Source of the DNA: Acidobacteriota bacterium
GTDB taxonomy: Bacteria > Acidobacteriota > Thermoanaerobaculia > Gp7-AA8
Length of the DNA: 64,000 nt
NCBI GenBank assembly: GCA_003223645.1
Contig: QHVT01000007.1
Location: 1-64,000, forward strand
Direction: 5' to 3'
Shown: positions 7,143 through 63,648 of the stretch, in pieces
Position numbering within the stretch: position 1 is the stretch's first letter
How the letters are laid out: the number at the start of each line of letters is the position of its first letter
Position numbers and translations under genes: made by a program
The notes under the pieces: generated by a model
Databases searched by the model: none
What the model was told of the DNA's origin: nothing
The model's input: the letters and a program-made list of their open reading frames with translations, nothing else

Positions 7143-7174
7143 GGGGGGAGGACCCTCTCGATCGGTATTAAATC

Positions 7175-7358: not shown

Positions 7359-8231
7359 ATGGTCTGTCCTCACTGCAGGGTTGCTCTCGACGTCGTTCGC
7401 TGCTGTCCGAACTGCGCGCGCTGTTATCCCGTCGATCACGGCATCGTCGATTTCGCCGAGGGGGCGTATTACGACCGGTTTGATGAGTCGACTGCGCTGA
7501 CGTGCGAGCATCTGGAAGGGTTGCAGCTCGAAGTCGAGGGGACGCGGCGGCGGATTCTCGATTTCTATTTGCCGAAGTTGCAGGCGGGTGCGCGGGTGCT
7601 CGATTGCGGGTGCGGGAACGGCGTGTCGGTCGATCTGCTGAACGAGCGCGGGCTCGATGCGTGGGGGAACGATCTCTCGCAGTTGCGCAAGTGGCAGTGG
7701 CGGGAGCGGGAGCATCGGGACCGGCTCGTGGTGGCGAGCGCGCTGTCGCTGCCGTTCGCGGACGACTTCTTCGACGTCGTGATCTCGTCCGGCGTGATCG
7801 AGCACATCGGCGTCGACGAGACGTCGGTCCCGCGCTACGGCGTCGCGCCGCGCGCGGATCGCGACGAGCTGCGCGCGCGTTTCTTACGCGAGCTGCTGCG
7901 CGTCGGCAGGACGATCTACATCGACTGTCCGAACGGCGCGTTTCCGATCGACTTCTGGCACGGCGACGCCCCCGGATCCGCGCGCTTCCATTCGCTGCGC
8001 GAAGGATTTTTGCCGACGTTTCGTGAGATCGCGTCGCTTGCGCCGGACGCGCGCGTCGAGGCGCTGTCGCCGTACAAGCGCCTGCAGTTTCGCCAGGCGG
8101 CACGGCATTGGTACGGGCGAGCGTTCGGCGGAGTGGGGGAGTTGTATTTCCGGCTGATGCCGCGCGCGATTGCGCGGAGCGCGTTGAATCCGTTTTTGGT
8201 GGTTGAAATTCGGAAGGTTAGCGAACGATAG
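7359..8231 (+). CDS. SAM-dependent methyltransferase with N-terminal zinc ribbon
   Basis: 290 residues. The N-terminus has four cysteines in Cys-x2-Cys pairs (MVCPHC and CCPNCARC) resembling a Trm112-like zinc ribbon. It is followed by a class I methyltransferase fold with motif I VLDCGCGNGVSVDLL and the type-11 motif SLPFADDFFDVVISSGVIEH. ATG 7359 was chosen because it begins the zinc-ribbon module; the upstream extension runs through the heptad array. The substrate is unknown. It is divergent from the VioB-like gene, so it may belong to the same pathway region. Confidence 0.8.
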   Translation: MVCPHCRVALDVVRCCPNCARCYPVDHGIVDFAEGAYYDRFDESTALTCEHLEGLQLEVEGTRRRILDFYLPKLQAGARVLDCGCGNGVSVDLLNERGLDAWGNDLSQLRKWQWREREHRDRLVVASALSLPFADDFFDVVISSGVIEHIGVDETSVPRYGVAPRADRDELRARFLRELLRVGRTIYIDCPNGAFPIDFWHGDAPGSARFHSLREGFLPTFREIASLAPDARVEALSPYKRLQFRQAARHWYGRAFGGVGELYFRLMPRAIARSALNPFLVVEIRKVSER

Positions 8232-8277
8232 GACAGATAGGATGGATAGGACGAATAGGACAGATAGGACGAACAGG
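8231..8277. repeat. 9-base minisatellite
   Basis: Five 9-base units (GGACAGATA, GGATGGATA, GGACGAATA, GGACAGATA, GGACGAACA) begin exactly at the stop codon of the methyltransferase gene. Confidence 0.85.
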
Positions 8278-8278
8278 T

Positions 8279-8322
8279 CCCGCCCGCCCTTCCCCGGAGG
8301 CGGGCAAGATGCCCGCTCTCCT
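8279..8322. repeat. family E palindrome, copy 2 (partial)
   Basis: CCGCCCGCCC ... GGAGGCGGGCAAGATGCCCGCTCTCCT; this matches the right part of the complete element at 24557-24616. It runs up to the stop codon of the metalloprotease gene on the minus strand. Confidence 0.75.
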
Positions 8323-10630
8323 AGATTGGTGGGCCTGGGGGGATCTCCGGCAGCTTCGGCGCTTGCCACGCTTCGGCCGGGCGCTCGAGGAAGCGCTTGA
8401 TGTCGTCGCGGGTCATCGCGCGATGCGCGTTTTCTGCGCTGTCGCTGACCGGTGTCAGGCGCGCGCTGAGCCGTCGCAGCGCTTCGCCGGCCTCGGCGCG
8501 CACTTGCGGGTCGGCGTCGCGATTCGCGGCGAGCTCGGCGAGGCGGACGAAGATCAGTGTGCGCGTCGCGCGGGTGATGCGGCCTTCGCGCGATGCGATG
8601 TCGATGAGCGAGTCGAGGACTTCGCGCAGCGGCAATTCGTTTTGCTGGGTGAGGCGCGCGCAGCGCGCGGGGTCGAGGAGTGCGGAGACGGTGATGTCGG
8701 CGCTCGTCGTCGCCGCGGCGACCGGATCGAAGGCGGGATCGGTGCGGCGGGGGAAGCGTTCGGTGTTTGCTTCGCCGTAGCCGTACGTCGGCGGCGGGAT
8801 GAGATCGATGAGGCGCTGCGGAATCGTGAGGAACGACGGCTGCAGCGTTTCGAGAATCGCGCTGAGTGCCTCGCGCTGTTGTTTCGCGGGGACGACGCGC
8901 GGCGGGTTCATGTCGTAGGTGAAGTAGACGCCGCCGACGGATTTCGCCGCGGCTTCGAGTTGGTAGCGGTGGTGGAGGAAGAGCGGGACGAGTTTCACTT
9001 CGAGCGCGGAGAGTGGCTCGCCTTTGTCGAGGTTGTCGAGTCCGAATTGATCGAGGGCGATGCGGCGCACTTCGATTTCGTGGCGCAGCGTCGCGATCGG
9101 ATCGGCGCCGCTGTCCCATACCGACCCGAGGGGATGCGCGCCGCTGACGGGACGCGAGTGCGGATCGGAGACGAAGAGCGGCACCGCCTTCGCGAGCGCC
9201 TCGAGCTCCTCGTCGCTCTTCACCGGCTGATAGGCGTACTTGATCGCGGCGATGTCGTACGGACCGACTCCTTTTGCATACGCGTCGGATAGATCGAGCT
9301 TGCCGTCCGTGATCTTGATGTTCGGCGAGGGATAGTCCATCACCGACGCGCGGCCGTACGTCGACGCGGCCATGTTGTGATCGAGGCCGAGGGTGTGACC
9401 GACTTCGTGCACGGAGAGCTGGCGGATGCGCGCCAGCGCCATGAGCGACGGCGATGTTTTCGGGTCGAGCTCGTCGTATACCGGCATGAGGCCGCGCGCG
9501 ATGAGTACGTCCTGGCGGATGCGCAGCGATCCGAGCAGCACGTTGCCTTTGATGATCTCGCCGGTGCGCGGATCGATCACGCCGCCGCCGTACGACCAGC
9601 CGCGCGTGGAGCGATGCACCCAGTTGATCATGTTGTAGCGGATGTCGAGCGGATCGGCGTCGGGCGGCAGCACCTTGACGACGAATCCGTTCGGGAATCC
9701 CGCGGCCTCGAAGGCCTGGTTCCACCACGACGCGCCTTCGACGAGCGCGCTGCGGATCGGCTCGGGCACGCCGTTGTCGACGTAATAGACGATCGACTGC
9801 CCCGGTTCGAGGCGATGCCGCGCGATCCAGTGCTTCGAGATCGGACCGGTGAAGGGCGACGCGTAGTCGTAGAAGTCGACACCAAAGAGTCCGACGCGCG
9901 AGTCGGCGCGGCGCGGCGTGAAGCCGGGCGGCGGCGACTGCACGAAGGAGTGATGCTCGCGCACGGTCACGATGTCCGCGGTGGGCGTGACGTCGCGTAC
10001 CAGATTGCCGGGACGATCGGTGGTCGCGAACGTCAGCGTCGCTTCGACTTCAGTGTTGCGCGGGAACGCTTTCGTGTGCGGCAAATAGAGCGCGCTGCGA
10101 TTCTTGTCGAGCGAGTACGAGCCTTGTTGCGCCTCGCGCAAACGACGCGCGACGCCATGCGCGTCGCTGAGAAAAAAATCAGTCGCGTCGACGAGGACGC
10201 CGTTCGGTGTCGTCGACTCGACTTTAAACGACGCGAGCACCGACTGCGCAAACGATTCTTCGACCGCGCGACGCTCGGAAGCGTCGTCCGACAGCGCGCG
10301 ATACGTGTAGTTCGGCTCAATCATGAGCACGCGCGGGCCGATGCGCTCGAAGCGGATGACGTGCGTCGCGCCGAGCTGATGGCGATCGAGTCCGATCGGG
10401 TTCGAGCCGACGCCTGACGCCAGCGACACCTGCCAGATCAGCTCTTCGTTGAAGTGCGTGATCTCTATCATCAGCTTGCCGTTGTCGGCGTCCCAGCGGA
10501 GGGGGATGAAGCCGTCGAAACTTTGGACCGCGGCGGCCGGAGCCGCCGCTTTGGCAGGTGGAGGTGGAGCCGGCTTCGGTGCGGTTGCGCACGCGGACAC
10601 CAACAACAAACCGACCAGCAGTCGCTTCAT
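8321..10630 (-). CDS. secreted zinc metalloprotease lipoprotein (DUF5117/DUF5118 type)
   Basis: 769 residues. The N-terminus MKRLLVGLLLVSACA has a lipobox (Val-Ser-Ala-Cys15), so it is probably an envelope lipoprotein, followed by a Pro/Ala-rich linker. The DUF5118/DUF5117-like region (about 35-370) precedes the metzincin zinc motif HEVGHTLGLDHN (HExxHxxGxxH) and a following Met-containing VMDYPSP turn; the C-terminal portion is DUF4953-like. Two adjacent Met codons (10633, 10630) could start it, and GGGAGAG lies just upstream. It begins a few bases after the M49-like peptidase gene, so the two are translationally linked. Confidence 0.85.
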   Translation of the reverse strand: MKRLLVGLLLVSACATAPKPAPPPPAKAAAPAAAVQSFDGFIPLRWDADNGKLMIEITHFNEELIWQVSLASGVGSNPIGLDRHQLGATHVIRFERIGPRVLMIEPNYTYRALSDDASERRAVEESFAQSVLASFKVESTTPNGVLVDATDFFLSDAHGVARRLREAQQGSYSLDKNRSALYLPHTKAFPRNTEVEATLTFATTDRPGNLVRDVTPTADIVTVREHHSFVQSPPPGFTPRRADSRVGLFGVDFYDYASPFTGPISKHWIARHRLEPGQSIVYYVDNGVPEPIRSALVEGASWWNQAFEAAGFPNGFVVKVLPPDADPLDIRYNMINWVHRSTRGWSYGGGVIDPRTGEIIKGNVLLGSLRIRQDVLIARGLMPVYDELDPKTSPSLMALARIRQLSVHEVGHTLGLDHNMAASTYGRASVMDYPSPNIKITDGKLDLSDAYAKGVGPYDIAAIKYAYQPVKSDEELEALAKAVPLFVSDPHSRPVSGAHPLGSVWDSGADPIATLRHEIEVRRIALDQFGLDNLDKGEPLSALEVKLVPLFLHHRYQLEAAAKSVGGVYFTYDMNPPRVVPAKQQREALSAILETLQPSFLTIPQRLIDLIPPPTYGYGEANTERFPRRTDPAFDPVAAATTSADITVSALLDPARCARLTQQNELPLREVLDSLIDIASREGRITRATRTLIFVRLAELAANRDADPQVRAEAGEALRRLSARLTPVSDSAENAHRAMTRDDIKRFLERPAEAWQAPKLPEIPPGPPI

Positions 10631-43695: not shown

Positions 43696-44763
43696 TTACC
43701 GCGTTTCGCTCAGCGGCGGCACCACATCCGTGGGAACCGTGGCCTGCAACGGAGCCATTTCCCGAGGCAAAAGCGTGAACCGCAACGGGTCGTAGCGCAA
43801 CGCGAGGAGGCGGCCCTTGTGGACATTGGCGCCGGCCGGCAGCTCGACGCGCAGCGTGACGTTGCCGCTGAGAACGCCGTGCGCGATCCAGCGTCCGCCC
43901 GCGAAGCCGGCTTCTTCGACGCCGAAGATGAGATCGGAGTCTTCTCCTTTTTCCGCGAGCGCGAAATCGGACGGGCGCACGATCGCGATGCCGCTGCCTT
44001 GAAACGGCGGACTCGCGAGCTCCCACGCGCCGATCACCGACTCGACGACGTTGCCGCGAATCGTGACCGGCACCACGTCGGCTTCGCCTGTCGCAATCGC
44101 GGCAGCCTCGCTGACAGGATGCGCGAACACTTCCGCGGCCATGCCGGTCTGCACGACGCGTCCTTCGTCGAGCACGACGATCTGATCGCTGAACGCCAGC
44201 TCCGCGTGCGTTGACGGCGCGGAGATGACAGTCGAGCCGATCACGCGCAGCGTGCGATACAGCATGTCGGCGAGCTCGCCGGATGTTCGTTCGAGCCAGC
44301 GGTCGGCGACGACGATCGCGGGCCGCAGCAATTCGACGCGCGCGAAATGCACGCGCGCGACTTCCGTCGACGACAGCGAGTCGATGCGCCGCTCCAGCAG
44401 CGACGCGAGCTCCCATTTTTCCGCCGTGAGCGCGTATTCGCGATGACGATCTTCGCGGTCGAGCGTGCGCGCGCGGACGGCCGCGACGAGCGCATGCTGC
44501 ACGCTCCAGCGTCCCGCGACGTCGATGTCGGACGTGACATACAACAGCGGACGCCGCGAAGCTTTCACATCGGTAACGGCGCGCGTGCCGATGAGGACGT
44601 CGCCGCGCGAAGGACGAAGCGCACCAGCGACGATGCGCAGCAGCGTAGACGCGCCGGAGGAGGGAGGCCCGGTGATCGCGGTGTGTTTGCTGGCGGGAAA
44701 CGTCAGCGTGACGTCGCGGAGGATGTTCGAAAACGAGACGTTGCGCAGCGCGACATCGAGCAC
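43696..44763 (-). CDS. degenerate ABC ATPase-like protein with C-terminal TOBE-like region
   Basis: 355 residues with the layout of an importer ATPase (PotA/ModC type): nucleotide-binding domain (1-230) and an OB/TOBE-like C-terminal part (240-345). However, the Walker A reads GPPSSGAST, with Ala38 in place of the essential Lys; the Q-loop glutamine is not evident; the signature is LSSTEVARVHFAR instead of LSGGQ; and Walker B is PAIVVADRW, with Arg155 instead of the catalytic Glu. The H-loop His and DEGRVVQTG D-loop region are kept. Probably a non-hydrolysing or regulatory protein. No permease is adjacent. Confidence 0.8.
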   Translation of the reverse strand: MLDVALRNVSFSNILRDVTLTFPASKHTAITGPPSSGASTLLRIVAGALRPSRGDVLIGTRAVTDVKASRRPLLYVTSDIDVAGRWSVQHALVAAVRARTLDREDRHREYALTAEKWELASLLERRIDSLSSTEVARVHFARVELLRPAIVVADRWLERTSGELADMLYRTLRVIGSTVISAPSTHAELAFSDQIVVLDEGRVVQTGMAAEVFAHPVSEAAAIATGEADVVPVTIRGNVVESVIGAWELASPPFQGSGIAIVRPSDFALAEKGEDSDLIFGVEEAGFAGGRWIAHGVLSGNVTLRVELPAGANVHKGRLLALRYDPLRFTLLPREMAPLQATVPTDVVPPLSETR

Positions 44764-47721: not shown

Positions 47722-50700
47722 TTACCCCTCTTCCCGCCACACGTCGTAATACCGCGCCGGCGGCGGCACGAGCGACGTCCGTACGCCGCGCAGCTCCGGT
47801 TTGTGCAGCACGAACAGGCGCTCGTGGAACAGCGGCGCGAGCGGCGCTTCCTTCACTACCATTTCGTTCAGGCCGCGATAAATCGCACCGCGTTTCTCGA
47901 CGTCGTTCGATCGCCGCGCCTCCATGATCTTCGCGTCCAGCTCGTTGCTGTGGAAGTACAGCCCGCGAACCGCCGATGTCGCCTCGGAGTGAAAGAAGAT
48001 GTAGAAGAAATTGTCCGAGTCCGGAAAGTCCGCGTACCAGTTCGCGCAGTAGATCTGTCCATGCCCGCGTTGATTGATCGGCGCGCGCGCCTCGGTCGCG
48101 GAGTGAGGCGTGACGTTCACTTTGATCCCGATCGCGGCAAGGTCCTCGACGATCAGCGGCACCATCCCGGAGTTGTTGAATTCGTCCGTGTCCCACGTCC
48201 GATACTCCACCGTGAATCCCGATCCGTATCCGGCCGCGCGCATCAACGCCCGCGCGCGATCGGGATCGTAGGGGAGGCCGAGCAGCCGCTCGTCATATCC
48301 GAGGAGACCGGGAGGCAGCAGCGACTCCGCGACGACCGCGAGTCCGGTGTACACGCGCTCGTTGATGCGCTCGCGATTGATCGCGTGATTCACCGCCTGC
48401 CGCACTTCGACGCGATTGAACGGCGGCGCCGACGTGTCGTATCCGAGGTAATTCGTGTGCAGTTGAACGGTCGTGAGTAAGTAGGGCGCATAGCGCGGAT
48501 CATTGCGTACGTCGTTCACGATCTTCGGCGGAATCCCGTGCGCGACGTCCAGCTCTCCGCGCAAAAACGCCTCGGCCATGTCGCGGAAGCTGCGCAGATC
48601 GAGACGGAACGTCAGCTCGTCGAGATACGGCATGTCCGGCACGTAGTAGTCGCGATGCCTCACGAACTTCACGTGACTGCCTTCGACCGCCTCGGCGACT
48701 TTGAACGGACCGGCGCCCGTGCCGAGGAGGCGATAGCGCTCCGGATCGCGCGCGTCGTCGATGCAGACGACGCCGCTCTCGTGCATCGTCATCAGCGACA
48801 GGAAAAATGCCATCGGCTCGTCGAGATGAAACTCGATCGTGTGCGCGTCGGGCACGACGAGTCCTGCCAGCGTACGCGTCTTTCCATCAAGCACGTCTTT
48901 CGCGCCGCGTACGTTGCGCATGATCCACGCACCGGTTGATTTCATCTCCGGCAGCAGCAGCCGCAGGAACGACTCGTACACATCGCGCGCCTCGATCACG
49001 CGTCCGTTGTGGAAGCGCGCGCCGCGGCGGAGATGGAAGCGATAGACGTATCCCTGGTCGAGCACTTCCCAGCGCTCCGCGAGGTCGGGCATCAGCTCCG
49101 CGCCGTCGCCATACTTCACGAGGTGCGCGTGAATCGCCCTCGAGAGATAGCCGAGGGCGGACGCGGACGTGCGCGCGGGATCGAGCGTGAGCTGTTGCCA
49201 CAGGACCGTCGCCGCGGTGATCGCGCCGCCGCGATTCGGCGCCGGCAGCGTGAAGCGCGCGAGCTCCTGCTTGAGCAATGTCGACTCGTGGCTCAGCGTG
49301 TTCGCCATCTGATTGAGGTCGGACACCCCGAAGCTCGACTCGCGCGAGCCTTGCTTGATCACATCCATCGACTTCACGATCGCGGAGCTTTCCGTCGCGA
49401 GGATCGACGACGACTCGAGCACGTTCTGCACGAGCCCCATGATGTTTTCCATCGCGCGGCTGATCGCGCGCGAGCCGGTTTCCTGTTCGCTCATCGCGCG
49501 CTTGAGGTGCTTCGTGTAGTCGCTGACCATCGACGCCTGCATGCCGATCTTGCGCGACGTCTGCGACTGCTGCTGCGACGCAGTCGCGGTCTGCTGCACC
49601 ATCTTTGTCACTTCTTCGATCGCCGCCGTCGCCGCAGCGCTGCCGCGCGCCTGTTCCTCGGTCGCGCGCGCGATCTCCGAGATCGAGCTCGTCGAGCGAT
49701 CGGTCAGCTCGAGAATCTTGTCGAGGACTTGCGCAGCGCGCGCGGTGAGGCTGACGCCGTCGCCGACGCGATCCGCGCTGATCGTCATCTGCTCGGCCGC
49801 GCGCCCGACGCCTTTCTGCACGTTCTGAATCAGCGTCCGGATCTCTTCCGTCGACACCGACGTGCGCTCGGAGAGATCGCGGATCTCGTCGGCGACGACG
49901 GCGAATCCGCGTCCGCGCTCGCCGGCCTGCGCGGCTATGATCGCGGCGTTCAGCGCGAGGAGGTTCGTCTGTCCGGCGATCTCGTCGATGACGCGCACGA
50001 TGTCGCCGATCTCCTGCGAGCGCTCGGCGAGATCGGTCAGCGCGCCTTTCGCTTCCTCGACCGCGACCTGGATCTTGCGCATGCCGCCGACCGTTCCTTC
50101 GACGGCGCTGCGTCCTTCGTTCGCCGCGTCCTTCACGTAGCGCGCGAGCTCCGACGATTGCTTCGCCGAGTTGCGGATCTCCTCGGTCGTCGCATTCATC
50201 TCCACCATGGATGATGCGGTCTGCGTGGCGAACGAAGAGAACGACTCCGTGTTCGTCGCGACTTCGTTGATCGACGTGATCATCTCTTCGATCGCGGACG
50301 ACGTCTGCTCGACGAATTCCGCCAGCGTGTCGGCGATGCGGCTCACTTCTTCGATCGACGCCGACATCTCCAGGATCGACGTCGACGTCTCCTCGGCGTT
50401 CGCGGAGAGCTCTTCCATGCTCGTGCGCACGTTGTTGATCGACTGATGGATCTGCGTCACGGAAGAGGAGGTCGTTTCAGTCGACGACAACTGATCGGAC
50501 GCGCTGCGCGCGAGGATGCGCGAGCGGTTGCTGATCTGCGCGCTCGCCTTCGACACGTCGGCGGCGAGCTGGCCGAAGCGGCGGATCGTGCGCTCGAGAG
50601 TTGCCACGAGCGCGCGCATCGCGTTCGCCATTTTCGCGGACTGCGTTTCGTCGACGATGTCGCGCGCGGTGAGCGAGAGATCGCCCGTCGTCACGCGGTC

Positions 50701-50922
50701 GATCAGCTTGATCATCCCCTCGCGGCGCACGAGGATGCGGCGAAACCAAAGCGAAAAAATGACGATGCAGAAGAGGCTTGCGCCCAGCCCGGCGAGCATC
50801 GCCTGCCACCACAGATGCCAGCTCATGGCAGGGATGAACCAGAGAAAAATGCCGAAGAGAGCGATGCAGGCAACAAGGAGGACCCACATCTGCTGAGTCC
50901 GTCCGAAGTATCGCCGTTTCAT
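47722..50922 (-). CDS. methyl-accepting chemotaxis protein fused to a family 5 solute-binding protein
   Basis: 1066 residues. Two membrane helices (about 12-31 and 39-62) with a tiny periplasmic loop, a HAMP-like segment (60-115), then a chemoreceptor signalling domain whose hairpin tip is IVRVIDEIAGQTNLLALNAA with GERGRGFAVVADEIRDL (about 309-350). Without any further membrane helix, residues 565-1066 are a complete SBP_bac_5 (peptide/nickel) domain: ELMPDLAERWEVLDQGYVYR, RRGARFHNGRVIEARDVYES and GYDERLLGLPYDPDRARALM. ATG 50922 was chosen over upstream codons in a palindrome. The binding domain is therefore predicted to be cytoplasmic. No other chemotaxis or transporter gene is adjacent. Confidence 0.9.
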   Translation of the reverse strand: MKRRYFGRTQQMWVLLVACIALFGIFLWFIPAMSWHLWWQAMLAGLGASLFCIVIFSLWFRRILVRREGMIKLIDRVTTGDLSLTARDIVDETQSAKMANAMRALVATLERTIRRFGQLAADVSKASAQISNRSRILARSASDQLSSTETTSSSVTQIHQSINNVRTSMEELSANAEETSTSILEMSASIEEVSRIADTLAEFVEQTSSAIEEMITSINEVATNTESFSSFATQTASSMVEMNATTEEIRNSAKQSSELARYVKDAANEGRSAVEGTVGGMRKIQVAVEEAKGALTDLAERSQEIGDIVRVIDEIAGQTNLLALNAAIIAAQAGERGRGFAVVADEIRDLSERTSVSTEEIRTLIQNVQKGVGRAAEQMTISADRVGDGVSLTARAAQVLDKILELTDRSTSSISEIARATEEQARGSAAATAAIEEVTKMVQQTATASQQQSQTSRKIGMQASMVSDYTKHLKRAMSEQETGSRAISRAMENIMGLVQNVLESSSILATESSAIVKSMDVIKQGSRESSFGVSDLNQMANTLSHESTLLKQELARFTLPAPNRGGAITAATVLWQQLTLDPARTSASALGYLSRAIHAHLVKYGDGAELMPDLAERWEVLDQGYVYRFHLRRGARFHNGRVIEARDVYESFLRLLLPEMKSTGAWIMRNVRGAKDVLDGKTRTLAGLVVPDAHTIEFHLDEPMAFFLSLMTMHESGVVCIDDARDPERYRLLGTGAGPFKVAEAVEGSHVKFVRHRDYYVPDMPYLDELTFRLDLRSFRDMAEAFLRGELDVAHGIPPKIVNDVRNDPRYAPYLLTTVQLHTNYLGYDTSAPPFNRVEVRQAVNHAINRERINERVYTGLAVVAESLLPPGLLGYDERLLGLPYDPDRARALMRAAGYGSGFTVEYRTWDTDEFNNSGMVPLIVEDLAAIGIKVNVTPHSATEARAPINQRGHGQIYCANWYADFPDSDNFFYIFFHSEATSAVRGLYFHSNELDAKIMEARRSNDVEKRGAIYRGLNEMVVKEAPLAPLFHERLFVLHKPELRGVRTSLVPPPARYYDVWREEG

Positions 50923-50943
50923 AGACTTCTCGATGATACATGA

Positions 50944-50975
50944 CGCAACCGCGTGACCGCGCAACCGCGTAACCG
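50944..50975. repeat. half of a family C element
   Basis: GCAACCGCGTGACCGCGCAA CCGCGTAACCGG, one arm only, in the divergent promoter region between the chemoreceptor fusion and the prenyl synthase. Confidence 0.8.
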
Positions 50976-50990
50976 GTACCATGCGCCCCG

Positions 50991-51866
50991 GTGAACGACT
51001 ACTTTTCGGAGCGTCGCGCGATCATTGACCATTATCTACAAGATCTCGCGTCGCGGACGAGCGCGCCGTTACCGCTCGACGCACCGCTCCGCCGCGCCCT
51101 CGGCGCCGCCGGAAAGCGCGTTCGCGGCGTGCTCACGATCGCGGTGGGGGAGACGTTCGGCTGCCGCGCGGAGAAACTTGTCGCCGCGGCGGCGGCCCTG
51201 GAGATGATCCACGCGTCATCGCTGATTCTCGACGACCTCCCATCGATGGACGACGCGCTCTTGCGTCGCGGCGCGCCGGCACTCCATCGCGAGTTCGGCG
51301 AAGACCTCGCCATCCTCTCCTCGGTCGCGCTGCTCAATCACGCCTACGGCTTGATCGCGCAGACCCACGCCGAGTTGTCGCCGCGACGCTGGCCGATGCA
51401 GCAAGTCGTGCAGCGCGTCGTCGACGCGGTCGGATGGAACGGGACGATTGCAGGCGAAGCCGTCGACCTGCACAGTGAAGGATCAAGCCTCGATTTCGAC
51501 ACCCTCGAATTCATCCATTCGCGAAAAACCGGCGCGCTGTTCGTCGCCGCGGCGGCAGTCGGGGCCATGCTCGCGAACGTCCACCCCGCGCCACTACAGC
51601 GAATCGAAGTCTTCGCCAAAAACCTCGGCCTCGCCTTCCAGATTACCGACGACGTCCTGGACGTCACCTCGGTCCCGGAAGTCCTGGGCAAAGACGTCGG
51701 CAAAGACGAACAACGCCTGACCTTCGTAAAACTCGCCGGCATCGAGGGCTCGCGCAAATTAAGCACAGAGCTGGTCGAGACCTCTCTCTGCGCAATCGAG
51801 CCCTTAGGCAAAGACGCGAAACCGCTGCGCGACCTGGCGATCCTAGTGCGTGACCGCGTCGCGTAA
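50991..51866 (+). CDS. polyprenyl diphosphate synthase (FPP/GGPP-type)
   Basis: 291 residues from GTG 50991. The first aspartate-rich motif is LILDDLPSMDDALLRRG (DDxxxxD, bacterial FPP/GGPP type) and the second is ITDDVLDVTS; GAAGKRVRGVLTIAVGE carries the IPP-binding Lys/Arg. The chain-length region upstream of the first motif has EMIHASSLI without bulky aromatic residues, so the product length is not obvious. It supplies quinone or carotenoid precursors. The last 24 bases overlap the convergent methyltransferase gene. Confidence 0.9.
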   Translation: MNDYFSERRAIIDHYLQDLASRTSAPLPLDAPLRRALGAAGKRVRGVLTIAVGETFGCRAEKLVAAAAALEMIHASSLILDDLPSMDDALLRRGAPALHREFGEDLAILSSVALLNHAYGLIAQTHAELSPRRWPMQQVVQRVVDAVGWNGTIAGEAVDLHSEGSSLDFDTLEFIHSRKTGALFVAAAAVGAMLANVHPAPLQRIEVFAKNLGLAFQITDDVLDVTSVPEVLGKDVGKDEQRLTFVKLAGIEGSRKLSTELVETSLCAIEPLGKDAKPLRDLAILVRDRVA

Positions 51867-53873: not shown

Positions 53874-56800
53874 TTAATTGACTCCGAGCCGCAGGTCCCG
53901 AACGTTTGCCCCCTTGATGATCGTGACGCCGGGCGTCAACTGTGGATCGGTGATGTAGCCGACGACGGGAAGGCCGAGGACAATGCGGGCTTCGTCCAAT
54001 AGATTCCTCAGTTCCATCTGGTGGTTGGCTTTGATCCTGACGCCGGCCGTCACCGTCTCCGCGAACGTTGCCGGTGGCAAACCTGCGGTAGCGCGCACCG
54101 CATTGATCGCCGCTCGCAGCTCGGTGATGTGGGCCGCTTTGATGGGCACGTTCGAGCCGATCGGATCGTCGGTGAACATGATGGTCGTGGCCAGTTCCGG
54201 ATTACTGAACGGCGTAACCGTGGCGCCGTTGACCGCGCGGACTTTGTATACGTATGCCGTATTCTTGGCTACGATCCCGTCCTGCAGCTGAAACCCTTGA
54301 CTGGCGCCCGCCGGTACCTCCGCCACGAGAGTGTAGGGACTGCCATTCGAGCTTCGATAGACTTGAAATCCTGTCGCATAGGCGATCCAACTCCATGTGA
54401 CGCGGATTTCATTCACGGAGACGGCTCGAGCTTCGATGCCGACGGGAGTTGCAAGAATCGCGGTGAAGTCGTTGACGAAGTTGTTGAAATAGCTGCCGTC
54501 GGAGTTGTTGGACGACACGCCTGCGCCGTTATTCGCAGGGAAGCCGTTGTAGCCGACGTTCACCGTAACAGTGATTGGGGGATAGGAGCTGCCGGCGCTC
54601 AATGAATCGGAGCGCGTGCAGGTTGCCTGCGAGAGAACACACGACCAACCCGCTCCGGTCATGCCGGTGATCGACATCCCGTAATACGGAGGAGTGTCCG
54701 TGACGGATACGGTTCCGCTCGTTGCGGCATTGCCGACATTGCTGACCGTGATGGTGTAAGTCCTGCCGGTATCGCCCTGCGCCCAAACACCGGGGGTATG
54801 GCTCATCGCGATGGCGAGGTCCGGGCTCGGCAGGATGGTGGTCGGATCGCTGGCGCTGTTGTTCGCGGAATTGCTGTCGCCGCCGCCCGAAATCGTTGCG
54901 ACATTCGTAACGCTGGCCGGTGCGGAGCTCAAGACAGTGACGAAGACGCTGATATCGTAATAGTAGTTAGGGCCGGCGGACAAAGAATCACTTCGCGTGC
55001 ACGTCAACGTTTCGAGCGTGCATGTCCAGCCGTACCCGTAGATGTTCGTTGCAGTGAGACCGGCCGGGAGATTGTCCGTGACCGTGATTTTGCCATGGCT
55101 GGAGCCTCCGGAATTGGACACCCGAAGCGTGTAAATGAAATTGGTCTGGCCGCCGATGGCATTGCCGTAATGGCTCTTCGTGATCGTGAGATCGGGGCAG
55201 GCGCTCATCAGAATCGCCACTTTGCCTGAATAGTACGCGGTTGCAGCGATGTCGGCTTTTCCATCGCCGTTGAAGTCGCTGATCGCGAGATTCGTCGCTG
55301 AAGAACTGACACTCGTCACGTCGGCGGACTGAAACGTGCCGTCTCCATTGCCTCGCATGGTCGCGACATAGCCGTAATAAGAGGTCACGAAGGCGAGATC
55401 GATGTTTCCGTCTCCGTTGATGTCGTCAGCCTTGACTGAAGACGCCCCATAAGGAGTGGCCATGGTGAGCGGTGACTGAAACGTACCGTTTCCGTTGCCC
55501 AGGACAATTGCGGAATCGCCGACATACGAACCGGCGAGCGCCAAATCGAGTTTGCCGTCGCGATTGAGATCCGCGATTGCGAGTGCGGCGCCGTATCCGC
55601 CGCTGTAAGCCGCCGGGCTTTGGAATGTGCCGTCGCCGTTTCCGATCAGGATGGCACCGCCGGAGCCGTAGTACGACGCCACGAGGTCCGGATTGCCGTC
55701 GCCATTGAAATCGGCGGAGCCGATTGCATGCGTGGAATTCACCTGGTAGGTCACGGCACTTCGAAGTGCACCGTTACCACTGCCGAGAAGCACTGCCACA
55801 CCCGGAGTGTTGCTGGTTCCGATCGCGACGTCGAGATTTCCGTCACGATCGAAGTCGTCGAGCACGAGCGAGTTGATGGAATACGGCGATGGAAAGAAAA
55901 TTGCGGGCTGGAATGTCCCGTCGCCGGTACCCAGGAGCACCGTCACGCCGAAGCTATAATAGCTGCCGAGGGCCAGATCCAGATTTCCGTCGTGGTTGAG
56001 ATCACCGGCGGCGATCGCGGACGTGCCGTTGCTGACCGTATAAAAATTCTCGCTTCCCATGGTGCCGTCGCCGTTTCCAAGGAAGATCGACACGCCGTTG
56101 TAAGACGCGACGGCGATGTCGTTTTTACCATCGGCGTTGAAATCGGCGACGGCGAGATTCGTGGCGCCGCTGCTCGTGCCGTAGAACGTCGGCGTCCCGA
56201 ACGTGCCGCAGGTCTGCGTGCTCCAGATCGTCGTTTGGTCGACTGCGGTGTTGTTGCCCGCATTGGTGTCGGCGCCGCCGGAAACGGTCGCCGTATTCGC
56301 AACCGATGACGGTGCATTCGAGGCGACGCTCACGATCAGAATGATCGGTGCATAGCTGGTGTACGCGGCGAGCACGTCGCTCCGCGTGCAGGTGAGCGTG
56401 GCGAGCGTGCACGACCAGCCCGCACCACTGATTGCCGTCGCCGTCAGTCCTGCCGGAAGGCTGTCCGTCACCGTCGCTGCTCCGGCTGTGGCAACGCCTC
56501 CGATGTTCGATGCGAGCAATCGATAAGTCCGACCCGTATCTCCCTGGGTAAAGCTGCCGATATGCGTCGAGCTCATCGCAAGGTCGGTCACCGGTGTAAT
56601 CGTCGTGACATCGCTTGCACTGCTGTTGACGGTGTTGAGCTCTCCGCCGCCGGAGACGGTGACGTTGTTCGTGACGCTCGCCGCCGCGCTGCCTGCGACG
56701 TTCACTGTGAGCGTAATGACGGGATAGCTCGAGCCGGCAGCCAACGCATCGTTGCGTGTGCAAGTGGTCGTGGACAATATGCAAGTCCAGCCGGTGCCGC

Positions 56801-59800
56801 CGATCGCCGTTTGGATGAGGCCTGACGGGATTGTATCGGCGACGGTCACACTGCCGTTTGTCGGCAGACTGCCGGAGTTCGTCACGGTGATGGTGTAAGT
56901 TCGCCCGGTGTTGCCCTGCGCGAACGTTCCACTATGGGTCTTTGTGATCGTGAGATCGGGAATTGGACAAGTGTCGAGCAGTACCGAGACCGTGGAGTCG
57001 CCGCTGTTCGCGCTGACCAGGTCCGGCTTCCCATCGCGATTGAAATCGCCCGCGAGCAGACCGGCTGGAGCATCGCCGGTACCGGCATTGATGGCAGGAT
57101 TGAACGTTCCCGCGCCGACCCCGGACAGGATCGAGACGTTGTCCGAGCCATTGTTGGCGACGGCCAGGTCCGGTACACCGTCGAGATTGAAATCTCGAGC
57201 CACGACGGCCGCGGGGCTGTTGCCCGCTGCATAAGAAACGGCGGATTGAAAACCAACGTCCTTGCCGAAAAGAATGGAGACGTTGTTCGAGCCGCTGTTC
57301 GCGACGGCGAGATCGTCGTAAGCGTCGCGATTGAGGTCCGCAACCACAACCGCACCAGGGGCGGTTCCGGTGTTGATGCTGACCGCCGCCTGGAACGTTC
57401 CGTCTCCGTTTCCGGTAAATATCGAGACATTGTCGGAGCCGGAGTTTGCAACGACGAGATCGATTTTTCCGTCGCGATCGAAATCGCCGGTGGCAATGGC
57501 CGCGGGATGGCTGCCGGCCGTGTAAGGAACGGCCGTTTGGAATGTGGCGTTGCCGTTGCCGAGGAGGATCGAGACGTTGCCGGAGCCGTCGTTGGCGACG
57601 GCGAGATCGATTTTTCCGTCGCGATTGAAATCGCCGGTGGCAATTCCGCGAGGGCCGCTGCCCGCGCTGTAGCTGACTGCTGTCTGGAACGTTCCGTTGC
57701 CATTACCGCGCAAAATGGAGACGTCGTTCGAGCCGCGGTTGGCAACGGCGAGATCGAGCATTCCGTCGGCGTCGAAATCAGCGGCGAGGATGGCATCGGG
57801 AGACGTGCCGGTTGCCGTAGTGGCTCCGGCAGTCAAGGACGCGGTCCCGTTGCCCGGCAATATGGAAACATCGTTCGAGCTCTTATTGGCGACGGCGAGA
57901 TCGAGATCGCCGTCGCGGTCGAAGTCGCCGGTTGCCACCGCGTCCGGCGTCGTTCCGGCGACCGAGTCGGCGGGTGGTGCCAGAGTTCCGCAGTTTGCTG
58001 TGCAGGTTCCGATGTTCAATCGGACGATGAGGTAATTGTAAGCGACTGCACCCTGTCCGGGCGCGACAAAATCCATTCTGCCATCGCGATTGAAATCGGC
58101 GAAGACCAGTTGGCTCGGCTCGTTATCGGTGGGGTGTTGGACCGCGGCCAGAAACATACCGCTTCCGGTTCCCAGGAAGATGGATGCAGTACGGGAGCCG
58201 CTATTCGCAGTTGCCAGATCCGGTATGCCGTCGCCGTTGACGTCCGCAATGGCCACGAAATACGGCCCCTGTCCCGCGGCGTAATGAACGGCCGCCTGGA
58301 ACGTGCGGTCGCCATTTCCCAGGAGCACGGCGACGTCGTCACCGCCATAATTGGACACTGCAAGATCGAGCTTGCCGTCGTGATTGAGATCGGCGGCAGC
58401 GACGCCGGACGGTCCGTTGCCGGTCGCGTAAGAGACGGCGGAGCCAAAAGTGCCGTCTCCATTTCCCGCGAGGATCGTCACGTTCGCGGCATTGAAGTTC
58501 GGAACGGCCAGATCTTGATGTCCATCGCCGTCGAAGTCGGCGACGATGACCCAGAATGGGCCGGAGCCGGTACTGTAGTTGACGGCCGGTTGGAACGTGC
58601 CGTTGCCTAAGCCGAGGAGAATCGACACATTGGCCGTACCATTGTTGGCAACGGCGAGGTCGCTTTTCCCGTCGCCATTGAAATCGCCGACCGCGACGGA
58701 GAACGGGCTACCGGCCGCCGCGTAGTTCGTTGCACTCTGAAACGAACTGTTCGTGCTGCCGAGAAGAACCGACACATTGTTCGAGCCGGCATTCGCGGTG
58801 ACGAGATCGGGTCTGCCGTCGCGGTTGAAATCCCCTGTCGCAATCGCAAGCGGCGTCGTGCCGACGGAATACGAAACTGCCGACGGAGATCTGGTGACTC
58901 CAAACACGACAGTGACGCGATTTTGCGCCGAGTCGACGCCGGCCAGGTCCGGATATCCATCCCGGTCGAAATCACCGGCCGCGCCCGCAAAATTCTGGTT
59001 TCCGCTGTAATATGCGGAGAACGGACTGAAAGACGGGCAGGGACTCTGTACCGGTGGTGAAGTCACATAGATGGATGCGGCCACCGCGCTGACTAGTGCT
59101 CCGCTGGTCCCTGTAATCGTAAACGGAGTATCGTAGTAGGTCCATGCCGATGATGGCGTCGTGACCGTCAACGTTGATGTTGTCGAGGTTTGCGTAGGAT
59201 TGAATGCAGCCGTGAAGCCGCTCGGCAATCCACTGATCGAGAGGTCCACGGAACCGGCGAAGCCGCCGATGGGATTCACGGTGATCGTGTAGGTCGTCGA
59301 ATCGCCCTGGACGACGGTTCTCGATGCCGGACTCACGGAGATCCTGAATCCGGGATCGGCAGGCAGACCGAGAGCCCGGGCGGCATTGAGCCGGCCGCCG
59401 GTCACGGATTTTCCGATCATGCTGTTGATCGGATCAGTATTGTCGAGGATCGCGCTCCTGACCTGCGCAGTCGTGAATGACGGCGAGTGCGCGAGCACGA
59501 GCGCGGCCACGCCGGCGACGTGCGGCGCCGCCATCGAGGTTCCGCTCAAATACTGATAGTTGTTGCCCGGCGTGGTCGACAGAACGCTGACGCCAGGTGC
59601 GCCAAGGTGAACGGTTCTCAAACCATAATTCGAAAAATAGGCGAGATTGTCGCGATTATCGAGGGCTGCGACGGCGATGACATTGGGTGCGGCATAGCTC
59701 GAAGGATAATGGCCGAAACTGTCGTTACTCGAGCTGTTGTTCCCGGCGGAGGCCACGAACAGGATGTCGTTCGCATTCGCTTTATTGATTTCATCCAGCA

Positions 59801-60653
59801 GGGCTTTGGAGAAGGGGAAGCCGCCCCAGCTGTTGGACAGCACACGCACGTTGACGCCGTCGATTTTCGCCTGGACGGCGAAATCGATCGCTTCGATCGC
59901 GCCGGCGAGCGTTCCGTTGCCATTGGAATCGATGAATTTCAAGCCCATGATCGAGGTCGTCCAATTGACCCCGGTCACGCCGATCCCATTGTTTCCCACT
60001 GCGCCGATCGTTCCCGCGACGTGGGTGCCGTGATAGTAGTCGTCTTGCGGATCGCACGTGTCCGTCAGGGCATTGAAGCCGTGCGTTCCCGCCGCGCAGT
60101 TGGCGTTTCCCTTGCCTCCGGGATTGCTCCAGACATTGGCCGCGAGATCGGAATGCGTATAGTCGATACCGCTATCGACGACACCCACCACGATCGATGC
60201 CGATCCGGTCGTAATGTTCCATGCGGATTCGGCGCGGATATCGGATCCGGCGATCCCGGCCGACCCAACGACCTGCCCGGTATTCTTCAGGCCCCACAAT
60301 GACCAGTATTGCGGATCGTTCGGCGTCGCCTCCAAATGGACGATGTAGTTCGGTTCCACATATTCGATGTTGGCGTCGCGATCGAGCGCGTCGACCAGCG
60401 CCTCCGCACTCCTGGAGCGCGAGTGGACCTTCCAGATGGTGCCGTCGCTCGTGCTCGCGATCGGCCTGCTCTGATCCGCGTCCGCGATATCCTGGATGTT
60501 CTTTAGTTGGGGCACAGAGATCCCGGATCGCATCTTGATGATCACCTCTCCCGGCACCGAGGAGCCCGTGGGGAGGAGTGTTGCCGCCAACGCGGAAGTG
60601 CCGGCGAGAAGGACAAAGATCGAACGTGCTACGAACGCAGCAAATGGGCGCAT
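53874..60653 (-). CDS. giant secreted subtilase (S8) with 21 FG-GAP repeats and DUF11 domains
   Basis: 2259 residues. Signal peptide 1-24; a propeptide-like inhibitor domain (35-105); S8 protease about 130-415 with Asp160 (VVDSGIDYTHSD), His211 (YYHGTHVAGTIG) and Ser373 (LSGTSMAAPHVAG); then an Ig-like domain. After this come 21 FG-GAP/VCBS units of the type GDFNRDGKPDLVxAN: seven, a short linker with two Cys (GTCTANCGT), seven, two DUF11 domains, seven, two DUF11 domains, an FN3 domain and a C-terminal helical repeat. Surface-exposed or secreted; calcium ligands in the FG-GAP loops. ATG 60653 was chosen for the signal peptide; further upstream the frame crosses the tRNA gene. Confidence 0.92.
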   Translation of the reverse strand: MRPFAAFVARSIFVLLAGTSALAATLLPTGSSVPGEVIIKMRSGISVPQLKNIQDIADADQSRPIASTSDGTIWKVHSRSRSAEALVDALDRDANIEYVEPNYIVHLEATPNDPQYWSLWGLKNTGQVVGSAGIAGSDIRAESAWNITTGSASIVVGVVDSGIDYTHSDLAANVWSNPGGKGNANCAAGTHGFNALTDTCDPQDDYYHGTHVAGTIGAVGNNGIGVTGVNWTTSIMGLKFIDSNGNGTLAGAIEAIDFAVQAKIDGVNVRVLSNSWGGFPFSKALLDEINKANANDILFVASAGNNSSSNDSFGHYPSSYAAPNVIAVAALDNRDNLAYFSNYGLRTVHLGAPGVSVLSTTPGNNYQYLSGTSMAAPHVAGVAALVLAHSPSFTTAQVRSAILDNTDPINSMIGKSVTGGRLNAARALGLPADPGFRISVSPASRTVVQGDSTTYTITVNPIGGFAGSVDLSISGLPSGFTAAFNPTQTSTTSTLTVTTPSSAWTYYDTPFTITGTSGALVSAVAASIYVTSPPVQSPCPSFSPFSAYYSGNQNFAGAAGDFDRDGYPDLAGVDSAQNRVTVVFGVTRSPSAVSYSVGTTPLAIATGDFNRDGRPDLVTANAGSNNVSVLLGSTNSSFQSATNYAAAGSPFSVAVGDFNGDGKSDLAVANNGTANVSILLGLGNGTFQPAVNYSTGSGPFWVIVADFDGDGHQDLAVPNFNAANVTILAGNGDGTFGSAVSYATGNGPSGVAAADLNHDGKLDLAVSNYGGDDVAVLLGNGDRTFQAAVHYAAGQGPYFVAIADVNGDGIPDLATANSGSRTASIFLGTGSGMFLAAVQHPTDNEPSQLVFADFNRDGRMDFVAPGQGAVAYNYLIVRLNIGTCTANCGTLAPPADSVAGTTPDAVATGDFDRDGDLDLAVANKSSNDVSILPGNGTASLTAGATTATGTSPDAILAADFDADGMLDLAVANRGSNDVSILRGNGNGTFQTAVSYSAGSGPRGIATGDFNRDGKIDLAVANDGSGNVSILLGNGNATFQTAVPYTAGSHPAAIATGDFDRDGKIDLVVANSGSDNVSIFTGNGDGTFQAAVSINTGTAPGAVVVADLNRDAYDDLAVANSGSNNVSILFGKDVGFQSAVSYAAGNSPAAVVARDFNLDGVPDLAVANNGSDNVSILSGVGAGTFNPAINAGTGDAPAGLLAGDFNRDGKPDLVSANSGDSTVSVLLDTCPIPDLTITKTHSGTFAQGNTGRTYTITVTNSGSLPTNGSVTVADTIPSGLIQTAIGGTGWTCILSTTTCTRNDALAAGSSYPVITLTVNVAGSAAASVTNNVTVSGGGELNTVNSSASDVTTITPVTDLAMSSTHIGSFTQGDTGRTYRLLASNIGGVATAGAATVTDSLPAGLTATAISGAGWSCTLATLTCTRSDVLAAYTSYAPIILIVSVASNAPSSVANTATVSGGADTNAGNNTAVDQTTIWSTQTCGTFGTPTFYGTSSGATNLAVADFNADGKNDIAVASYNGVSIFLGNGDGTMGSENFYTVSNGTSAIAAGDLNHDGNLDLALGSYYSFGVTVLLGTGDGTFQPAIFFPSPYSINSLVLDDFDRDGNLDVAIGTSNTPGVAVLLGSGNGALRSAVTYQVNSTHAIGSADFNGDGNPDLVASYYGSGGAILIGNGDGTFQSPAAYSGGYGAALAIADLNRDGKLDLALAGSYVGDSAIVLGNGNGTFQSPLTMATPYGASSVKADDINGDGNIDLAFVTSYYGYVATMRGNGDGTFQSADVTSVSSSATNLAISDFNGDGKADIAATAYYSGKVAILMSACPDLTITKSHYGNAIGGQTNFIYTLRVSNSGGSSHGKITVTDNLPAGLTATNIYGYGWTCTLETLTCTRSDSLSAGPNYYYDISVFVTVLSSAPASVTNVATISGGGDSNSANNSASDPTTILPSPDLAIAMSHTPGVWAQGDTGRTYTITVSNVGNAATSGTVSVTDTPPYYGMSITGMTGAGWSCVLSQATCTRSDSLSAGSSYPPITVTVNVGYNGFPANNGAGVSSNNSDGSYFNNFVNDFTAILATPVGIEARAVSVNEIRVTWSWIAYATGFQVYRSSNGSPYTLVAEVPAGASQGFQLQDGIVAKNTAYVYKVRAVNGATVTPFSNPELATTIMFTDDPIGSNVPIKAAHITELRAAINAVRATAGLPPATFAETVTAGVRIKANHQMELRNLLDEARIVLGLPVVGYITDPQLTPGVTIIKGANVRDLRLGVN

Positions 60654-61503: not shown

Positions 61504-63648
61504 ATGCACAAACCTCTCGCCCTTGCTCTCGTTCTGCTCCTCGCCGCCACTCCGATCTTCAGCCAGTCTTCCGCGCGCAGTTCCTCGGCCGTCCAGGTCA
61601 CGCTCGTCGAGGTGCCGGTCAACGTTTATGACCATGCGGGCAATGCCATCCGCGGCCTGACGGCGGCCGACTTCGAGCTGACGGATGACGGCAAGAAGCG
61701 CGAGATCACGCACTTCGAGGAGATCGATCTCGCTCAACTCGCGGCGCAGAAGCAGACTCCGTCATCGGCGGCGCGGCGCAATTTCATGCTGCTGTTCGAT
61801 CTCTCGAATTCGACGCCGACCTCGATCGGGCGCTCGCGTGATGCCGCATTGCAATTCGTCAAGGGCGATCTGACGGAGGCCGACGTCGCGGCCGTTGCGA
61901 CGTACAGCGTCGAAAACGGGTTCAAGCTGATCACGAACTTCACGGCCGACCGCGGCGCGCTCACCGCCGCAATCCTGACGCTCGGCAATCCGAAGATCTT
62001 TCACACCAGCGACCCGCTGCTGCTCGCCGCGACTTCTGCAGGCGGCAATATGACGGCCGGTCCCGCCCTGGAGCGCGGCGGAACGAAATTGAACACCGGC
62101 GAATACGAATCGATCGAGCAGCGGCCGAACGCGATCATCGGGCCGGACACCAAGGACGCCATGATCGCCCCGTTCGTCGAGTCCGCCAATCGCTCCAATA
62201 CGCGTGCGGACGAAGAATACCGGCGCAATCGCGTGAGCCATGAAATCCAGACGTTCTCCAATATCGCGCGCCTTCTCAATAGCGTCAGCGGACGCAAGCA
62301 GGTCATCCTGCTCTCTGAGGGCTTCGATCCGAAATTGGTGCAGGGACGCGAAGCGGCCGGCACGGTCGCGGAAACCGTGAATGAAAATGACGTTGCCATG
62401 TCCGGTCACGCTGCGCGTCTGAATACCGACGAGCGCTATGGCAACAGTGCGGCGGCGAGTGCCCTCGGCACCATGGGCGAACTTCTGCGCCGTTCGGACG
62501 TCGTATTGCACGCGATCGACATCAAGGGACTGCGCGGCTCGAGCGATGCGGCGGAAGGGAACCAACGCGCGTCCAATGAAGGCCTCTATTTGATGACGCG
62601 GCCGACCGGCGGCGAAGTCTTCAAGAACGCCAACGACCTCTCGACGAGTTTTCACGCGCTCCTCAAGCAGCAGGAAGTCGTCTATGTCCTCGGATTCCAG
62701 GCATCCGGCGACACGCCCGGCAAATTTCATTCGCTTCAATTGGATATGAAAAAGCCGGACGCGAAGGCGAGCTACCGTTCCGGCTATTACGAGCCGAATG
62801 CGACTCCATCGGCGATGGAGACGACGCTCACGGCGGGAGAGATCCTGCTCAATGACGTCGCCATGGATGCGGTCAAGGTCAATGTCCTTGCGTCGCCCTT
62901 CCCGGTGCGCGGACAGTCGCCGCAGGTGCCGGTCATTGTGGAAATCGACGGCCCGAGTCTCATGGCCGGTGCAAACGGACTGACCGTCAACGGCGATTTG
63001 TTCATATACGCCTTCGATCGCGAGAATCACGTCAAGGACTCGCTCTTTCAGCGATTCAATCTCGATCTGATGAAGGTCGGGCCGGCATTACAACTCCGAG
63101 GACTCAAGTATTACGGCACGCTGTCGCTGCCTCCGGGAGACTATGCGATCAAGACGCTCGTCCACATTCCGTCGTCCTCGTTCGACGGATTCAAGCGTGT
63201 CGATCTCACCGTGCCTGATTTCTCGAAACCGACGGTCCTGCAGCCGGTTGCGACGGAACAGTCGGGTACATGGCTGATGGTCCGCGGCACCGCGAAACCG
63301 GGAACCACGTCCGGTTATCCGTTTCTCGTGGCGCAGGAGAGCTTCATTCCTGCGTCGACGTGGGAGATCTCGGGCGCGACGCCGCAGCATCTCGCGTTGT
63401 TCTTGTACAACGTCGATCCGAAGGATCTCGTCGTCACCGGCAAGCTGAAGATGACGGACGGCAGCACGCGCGACGTGCGGTTCGACGTCGTCAAGGCGAC
63501 GGCACCCGATGCCTCGAAGGCGTCGCAGGTGATGCTCGATCTGAAAGCCGACGGTCTTGCCGCCGGCCAGTACGCGCTCGATTTGTCCGTGCAGCCGAAA
63601 TCCGGCGCGTGGTCGAAGGCGTTCACGATCCCTGTCGCCGTTCCGTAA
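61504..63648 (+). CDS. VWFA-related (acidobacterial type) secreted protein, first paralogue
   Basis: 714 residues. Signal peptide MHKPLALALVLLLAATPIFS. The N-terminal Ig-like segment contains VTLVEVPVNVYDHAGNAIRG and LTAADFELTDDG, hallmark of the VWFA-related acidobacterial domain. The von Willebrand A domain (about 95-320) has MLLFDLSNSTPTS as a DxSxS-like MIDAS and VILLSEGFD. The remaining 330 residues are strand-rich. No membrane anchor is visible after the signal. Preceded by the c-di-AMP riboswitch and followed 48 bases later by a close paralogue. Confidence 0.88.
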   Translation: MHKPLALALVLLLAATPIFSQSSARSSSAVQVTLVEVPVNVYDHAGNAIRGLTAADFELTDDGKKREITHFEEIDLAQLAAQKQTPSSAARRNFMLLFDLSNSTPTSIGRSRDAALQFVKGDLTEADVAAVATYSVENGFKLITNFTADRGALTAAILTLGNPKIFHTSDPLLLAATSAGGNMTAGPALERGGTKLNTGEYESIEQRPNAIIGPDTKDAMIAPFVESANRSNTRADEEYRRNRVSHEIQTFSNIARLLNSVSGRKQVILLSEGFDPKLVQGREAAGTVAETVNENDVAMSGHAARLNTDERYGNSAAASALGTMGELLRRSDVVLHAIDIKGLRGSSDAAEGNQRASNEGLYLMTRPTGGEVFKNANDLSTSFHALLKQQEVVYVLGFQASGDTPGKFHSLQLDMKKPDAKASYRSGYYEPNATPSAMETTLTAGEILLNDVAMDAVKVNVLASPFPVRGQSPQVPVIVEIDGPSLMAGANGLTVNGDLFIYAFDRENHVKDSLFQRFNLDLMKVGPALQLRGLKYYGTLSLPPGDYAIKTLVHIPSSSFDGFKRVDLTVPDFSKPTVLQPVATEQSGTWLMVRGTAKPGTTSGYPFLVAQESFIPASTWEISGATPQHLALFLYNVDPKDLVVTGKLKMTDGSTRDVRFDVVKATAPDASKASQVMLDLKADGLAAGQYALDLSVQPKSGAWSKAFTIPVAVP

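Follow-up and report, generated by a model that had tools for sequence, protein, structure and literature searches.

An Acidobacteriota chemoreceptor variant with a predicted cytoplasmic SBP_bac_5 sensor domain

Few bacterial sensors are as well understood as chemoreceptors, and the solute-binding proteins (SBPs) of the SBP_bac_5 family are normally exported, to catch peptides. The stretch of DNA analyzed here (the window: 64,000 nucleotides, positions 1 to 64,000 of contig QHVT01000007.1 in the Acidobacteriota bacterium assembly GCA_003223645.1) encodes a protein that joins the two, with a full SBP_bac_5 domain following the signaling hairpin of a methyl-accepting chemotaxis protein (MCP). 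The locus raises the questions of whether such a fusion is real, on which side of the membrane its SBP domain lies, and what this domain could sense and control. The variant is genuine: a chemoreceptor that has its SBP_bac_5 sensor inside the cell. The reading that we favor, with a probability of roughly 0.6, is that of an orphan receptor in which the cytoplasmic SBP_bac_5 domain detects an intracellular metabolite with an amino group and a non-flagellar CheA receives the signal; here, we infer the ligand, the coupling and the output.

Domain layout and distribution of the fusion

The receptor gene and its parts are as follows.
47722..50922, minus strand: complete gene of the fusion receptor (1066 codons and a stop), delimited by the reading frame, Pfam matches and homologues
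50833..50889, minus strand: membrane helix 1, residues 12-30, by hydropathy; the full-length model has a helix at 8-28, with a predicted local distance difference test score (pLDDT) of about 70-79 there
50743..50799, minus strand: membrane helix 2, residues 42-60, by hydropathy, preceded by a short turn; helix 35-79 in the model
50593..50742, minus strand: HAMP-like stretch, residues 61-110, aligning from residue 70 with the HAMP region of the MCP encoded on contig C41 of the same genome
49246..50592, minus strand: MCP signaling hairpin, residues 111-559 (about), with 32 heptads in each of the two arms that flank the tip
49885..49971, minus strand: hairpin tip, residues 318-346, with Ile329 and Gln332 at the canonical Glu and Arg positions
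47725..49230, minus strand: SBP_bac_5 sensor domain, residues 565-1066, by Pfam and by sequence and fold matches in PDB
48028..48030, minus strand: codon of Asp965, the equivalent of DppA Asp408

The gene occupies an uninterrupted minus-strand frame (47722-50982) and starts with the ATG at 50922; most of the full-length homologues align from residue 1 of the encoded protein. At an E value of 0.01, Pfam detects MCPsignal (residues 257-440, 148 bits against a cut-off of 34.6) and SBP_bac_5 (residues 609-981, 257 bits against a cut-off of 32.4) and no other domain, an N-terminal DNA-binding domain of the SgrR type included. Two N-terminal membrane helices and the order of the MCP hairpin and SBP_bac_5 had been proposed in a first-pass annotation of this DNA; hydropathy and Pfam, respectively, bear out both. 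The receptor thus runs from a tight membrane hairpin through a HAMP-like stretch and a very long MCP hairpin to the complete SBP domain. Confidence in the full-length structure model is low (pLDDT 55.5), and nothing but the N-terminal hairpin was taken from it.

There is no proline among residues 60-557, compared to 31 after them, and in every one of the four blocks that make up residues 111-559 the 3.5-residue hydrophobic periodicity is stronger than in any of 500 shuffles, which does not hold for the SBP blocks from residue 700 onward. With the tip centered at residue 335, 224 residues (32 heptads) in either direction lead to residues 111 and 559, an arm length compatible with the 64H class of MCPs, to which the hairpin may belong and which is named in passages of the MiST 3.0 paper (PMC6943060). 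The genome (6.38 Mb in 51 contigs, 97% complete) encodes four MCPs. The alignment of the fusion receptor with one of them, that of C41, covers residues 70-557, is interrupted by just one gap, of one residue, near residue 86, and stops four residues short of the end of the C41 protein; the SBP domain was therefore added at the natural end of a C41-type MCP. The SBP part opens at Gly565-Gly566. No Pfam HAMP match follows the second membrane helix at an E value of 0.01, although this stretch aligns with the HAMP of the C41 MCP. The latter has a would-be periplasmic region between its two helices that the fusion receptor lacks; only a short turn separates the helices in the fusion receptor, which leaves no room for a periplasmic sensor domain. 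The hairpin folds back on itself and thereby brings its C-terminus to the HAMP-like stretch, which would place the SBP domain at the inner face of the membrane.

A scan of contigs for homologues yielded 18 loci, 16 of them in metagenome-assembled genomes (MAGs) of Acidobacteriota/Thermoanaerobaculia, where homologues with the same domain order are 59-81% identical; one of these 16 loci (L026) lies at a contig end and contains the MCP part only. Neither of the two matches outside Acidobacteriota (L027 and L028) shows MCPsignal; L028, from Opitutae, is a single frame (5326-8889) in which SBP_bac_5 is followed by an ABC permease domain. Within the class, the fusion is present in 28 of the 148 genomes. 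These include all 18 genomes of the window's family, 13 of which encode it as a single full-length frame, the other five being cut by a contig end (G011), broken in frame (G003 and G002) or split over two contigs (G004 and G016), as well as the only genome of family f2 and 9 of the 14 genomes of family f17, in three of which a contig end seems to truncate the gene. Among 396 genomes sampled from the phylum, 30 from 11 families have the fusion as a single frame, with identity down to 24%, and there are two additional partial cases (G004 and G247). The genome counts are lower bounds, few candidates having been scored per genome; both domains were confirmed by Pfam in L064 of f17, and the assignments in the other families rest on alignment. 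A tblastn search for the fusion on plasmids gave 2048 matching records, none with a single place covering 80% of the query; the coverage of other phyla was uneven.

Membrane side, ligand site and signaling partners

The first-pass annotation had placed the binding domain in the cytoplasm, with no membrane helix between it and the MCP hairpin. Beyond residue 120, the highest 19-residue hydropathy value in the fusion receptor is 1.40, and a hidden membrane helix at residues 540-570 is thereby ruled out; there is no signal sequence ahead of the SBP_bac_5 domain. By comparison, the genome's remaining three SBP_bac_5 proteins carry, as judged by eye, lipoprotein-like signals at the N-terminus, and one of them adjoins two permease-like genes. 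Among 39 aligned relatives, two N-terminal helices exceed the hydropathy threshold in 26, one in 7 and none in 6. All six helix-free relatives (L089, L093, L094, L095, L096 and L098) retain the SBP domain, and in five of them the open frame leaves at most 21 residues ahead of the start used; in L093, there are 94 such residues, and the start there is a choice. Since soluble members cannot carry an exported SBP and the domain order is the same throughout, the SBP domain appears to be cytoplasmic in all members. The sequence comparisons thus strongly support a cytoplasmic position of this domain in the fusion receptor; an exported C-terminus is rejected for the relatives that lack N-terminal helices and is unlikely for the remainder.

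The SBP domain is shown by sequence comparison and by the predicted structure to be intact and to possess the conserved ligand-site Asp. It matches solved peptide-binding proteins over the whole extent of the domain (8upi, E 4.1e-75; DppA, E 1.5e-42). A model of residues 545-1066 (mean pLDDT 72.1, predicted template modeling score 0.58) matches SBP_bac_5 structures with Z scores of 23-27.5 among the 50 matches listed, 8upi being aligned over 475 residues with a Z score of 26.2 and a root-mean-square deviation of 6.5; a search for viral folds gave no match at an E value of 0.001 or better. In DppA, Asp408 binds the amino group of the ligand and its partner, Arg355, binds the carboxylate. The same pair, in precursor numbering with an offset of 28, is named in the title of PDB entry 8z1z (DppA R383D+D436R). 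Asp408 aligns with Asp965 of the fusion receptor, a position occupied by Asp in 45 of 45 fusion sequences, in 12 of 15 kinase-fused SBP sequences (see below) and in one of the three lipoprotein-like SBPs of the genome; L027 was dropped before this alignment. Gly565, Gly566, Trp962, Asp965, Asp968 and Asp970 are all retained in 39 of 39 relatives, at identities to the window protein down to 24%. The equivalent of Arg355 varies by family, and the ligand chemistry, to judge from this alignment, probably differs between the fusion families; our guess for the window receptor is a ligand that bears an amino group but is not a plain dipeptide. A weak hint at an amide comes from exported relatives on plasmids: the best matching plasmid SBPs among those listed are 32-36% identical, and the loci that were read combine them with permeases, an ABC ATPase and an acetamidase/formamidase gene in 4/4 and with an annotated ANTAR gene in 3/4.

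According to the first-pass annotation, the receptor might report to CheA and CheW, and the genome does encode two CheA (on C25 and C29), three CheW (on C25, C29 and C41), CheR in both che clusters, CheD and several CheB. At the hairpin tip, the canonical Glu and Arg are seen in the C29 MCP; the fusion receptor has Ile and Gln instead, the MCPs of C41 and C21 share this type of tip (Leu or Ile, with Gln), and 34 of the 39 relatives have Ile or Leu with Gln. The common tip of the fusion, C41 and C21 MCPs suggests a dedicated array. Three stretches of the fusion receptor fit a methylation consensus and are candidate methylation sites. CheW domains are present in 50 of 50 fusion genomes, the window's own included; within the class, they occur in 28/28 fusion genomes and in 69/120 others (p 2.8e-6, uncorrected for relatedness). 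Four genomes (G012, G017, G018 and G001) carry the fusion together with three CheW-domain matches each, one of which is the sole CheA of the respective genome and is of the C25 type (61-87% identity), so that the C25-type CheA is the likeliest partner of the fusion receptor as far as gene content can tell. The C25 cluster itself (L034) contains no MCP gene and encodes, besides CheA, DUF4388/receiver, AAA ATPase, HEAT-repeat and receiver proteins. Given that no flagellin gene was found in the genome, a motility output would need type IV pili or something else; genes for PilB- and PilT-like ATPases are located some kilobases after the C41 MCP gene.

Taken together, these features are compatible with the following scheme. 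The sensor would be the cytoplasmic SBP_bac_5 domain, which is attached to the hairpin where its C-terminal arm comes back to the membrane. A small internal metabolite with an amino group (a short peptide, amino acid or amide) would close the two-lobed domain, and closure could alter how the hairpin packs next to the HAMP-like stretch. This change would travel to the tip and alter the activity of the CheA encoded on C25, the output of which might be type IV pili or another non-flagellar function. In effect, the cell would gauge its own nutrient state rather than its surroundings.

Alternative explanations

Several observations count against this scheme. The position of DppA Arg355, around which the alignment is gapped, is occupied by Glu (Glu914) in 16/16 near sequences, by Ala or Val in 9/9 sequences of f17, and by Arg in 8 of 20 others. 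The four f30 sequences have an altered tip that lacks Gly-Glu-x-Gly, and G352, an f30 genome, has a single CheW match, which makes coupling to CheA doubtful in this family; more generally, that a genome encodes CheW domains is no proof of their coupling to the fusion receptor. Finally, a hydrophobic stretch inside the SBP domain exceeds the threshold in three of the helix-free relatives (L089, L094 and L095).

That the equivalent of Arg355 is not retained would agree with a cytoplasmic SBP domain that is no longer a small-molecule sensor but a scaffold or a docking site for a controlling protein partner. The invariance of Asp965 and of the five other residues across highly diverged relatives argues against such a change of function, and we consider it unlikely, even if it is the alternative that fares best.

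The altered f30 tips and the lone CheW match of G352 lend some weight to an intracellular sensor with an output that bypasses CheA, that is, a stand-alone coiled-coil regulator; furthermore, no che genes were found among the scanned neighbors of the fusion genes. Outside the f30-like sequences, however, the tip is well kept, and all fusion genomes encode CheW domains, so that this possibility appears decidedly doubtful.

A periplasmic SBP domain that acts as an ordinary outside sensor would agree with the usual export of SBP_bac_5 proteins and with the over-threshold hydrophobic stretch. This stretch, however, recurs at the same place in L049 and L050 (equivalent residues 695-721), inside the SBP domain, and is read as part of the SBP core; L063 has an over-threshold stretch elsewhere, at 922-940. 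With no membrane helix between the MCP hairpin and the SBP domain and with relatives devoid of N-terminal helices, a periplasmic location is highly improbable.

An artefact of sequencing or assembly, for which only the broken frame in G003 and the halves of the fusion in different frames in G002 (L025) could be adduced, is hardly credible and is ruled out by the recurrence of the same junction and domain order in many genomes and 11 families at all the identities given above. The second frame of L025 was considered as an independent SBP gene and rejected: no signal-peptide start is seen where the two halves meet, and the frame looks like the product of a frameshift.

Relatives, precedents and gene neighborhood

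The first-pass annotation regarded the cytoplasmic SBP_bac_5 domain as analogous only to that of SgrR. This turned out to be too narrow, because the same class also encodes soluble proteins of approximately 1900 residues that combine a Ser/Thr kinase, AAA_16 and SBP_bac_5 (L071-L078, from genomes G131, G132, G012, G026, G141, G024, G020 and G004). Two SBP domains are detected by BLAST in seven of these eight loci. Pfam finds the kinase, AAA_16 and two SBP_bac_5 domains in L071 and no kinase in L073, where the fetched stretch starts inside the frame. No hydropathy stretch above 1.8 is present in 7/8 of these proteins; the one in L076 lies within the SBP part.

In a first tree, built after L028 and three mis-cut segments had been dropped, the MCP-fused and kinase-fused SBPs were joined weakly (91/76), and sequences were added for the later trees, which included 30 (second tree) and 18 (final tree) of the 45 MCP-fused sequences and, in the final tree, 11 of the 15 kinase-fused ones; the sequence of L144 was left unused. 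In the final tree of 51 SBP domains, a branch supported at 97/94 separates the 18 MCP-fused and 11 kinase-fused domains from 22 SBPs that are exported or belong to transporters; of the 13 stand-alone SBPs newly included here, 12 have, by eye, a signal-like or anchoring N-terminus. This topology favors a single recruitment of SBP_bac_5 as a cytoplasmic sensor, the branch being short and the sample small. The MCP-fused SBPs do not form one group, with f30 falling beside or outside the kinase-fused SBPs and with a joint group in 2% (second tree) and 10% (final tree) of the bootstrap trees; we therefore make no claim of a single MCP fusion event. A tentative scenario, in our estimate somewhat likelier to be wrong than right as a whole, is that Acidobacteriota enlisted SBP_bac_5 as a cytoplasmic sensor a single time and that MCPs and soluble Ser/Thr kinases then came to share the resulting clade, with the MCP version inverting the usual outside-in arrangement: it would read an intracellular metabolite with an amino group where the hairpin ends near the membrane, and would set the activity of a non-flagellar CheA.

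The fusion receptor resembles long-domain MCPs in the hairpin, the tip core, the 32 heptads per arm by length and the membrane helices, and differs from them in having a C-terminal SBP_bac_5 domain and neither a periplasmic sensor nor a Pfam HAMP. With exported SBP_bac_5 proteins (8upi, DppA), it shares the sequence and fold of the whole domain and the ligand-site Asp, but it is joined to a receptor and has neither a signal sequence nor peptide-transporter genes among the scanned neighbors; an ABC ATPase gene at 43696-44763 is about 3 kb away and not adjacent. The kinase-AAA_16-SBP_bac_5 proteins likewise have cytoplasmic SBPs, on the same side of the 97/94 branch, but their output is a kinase, they have as a rule two SBP domains, and they lack an MCP. 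AmiC is a cytoplasmic sensor with a binding-protein fold that belongs to another SBP family and has another output, the only link seen being the ANTAR and acetamidase/formamidase genes beside the exported relatives. SgrR and DsvR, described in passages of PMC13060122 as cytoplasmic transcription regulators with a C-terminal SBP_bac_5 domain, are similar in that this domain is a presumed sensor of internal metabolites, but their output is DNA binding instead of an MCP hairpin. Excerpts of two other papers report SBP_bac among the sensor domains of archaeal chemoreceptors and C-terminal sensor domains in some cytoplasmic chemoreceptors (PMC9680633), as well as the recognition by SBP Pfam profiles of sensor domains in cytosolic and membrane signaling proteins (PMC9602780). 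C-terminal sensors, SBP_bac sensors of chemoreceptors and cytosolic SBP profiles are thus already in print, according to these excerpts, which weighs against novelty; no description of the MCPsignal-SBP_bac_5 combination was recognized in the portions of the open-license papers searched.

The recurrence of the fusion in many Acidobacteriota points to a conserved mode of intracellular nutrient sensing. A receptor family that is widespread in one phylum and keeps a whole binding protein inside the cell would make signaling from the C-terminal, membrane-proximal end of the hairpin testable and would offer a route by which little-studied bacteria gauge their internal nutrient state. Those members that are soluble by nature lend themselves to structural and binding studies.

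Outside the receptor gene, one neighbor is conserved among near relatives:
50991..51866, plus strand: divergent polyprenyl synthetase gene, by Pfam

Of the 13 near loci, 10 have a divergent gene of this cluster next to the fusion. Neighbor families were assigned by a Pfam run on one example each, and the window's own neighbors were left out of the clustering; the fusion gene was not called in L017 and L088. Upstream of the fusion, all four f30 loci (L099-L102) have genes for alanine dehydrogenase and CoA transferase. Among 20 distant loci, an ACT protein is encoded in five, and DUF711, RidA and RelA/SpoT proteins in six each; the neighbors in L103 are HPr kinase and RapZ. Elsewhere in the window, the minus strand at 53874-60653 encodes a subtilase of 2259 residues that contains numerous FG-GAP repeats as well as four DUF11 stretches, and two neighboring plus-strand genes (61504-63648 and 63697 onward) encode proteins that begin almost alike and are apparently tandem paralogues.

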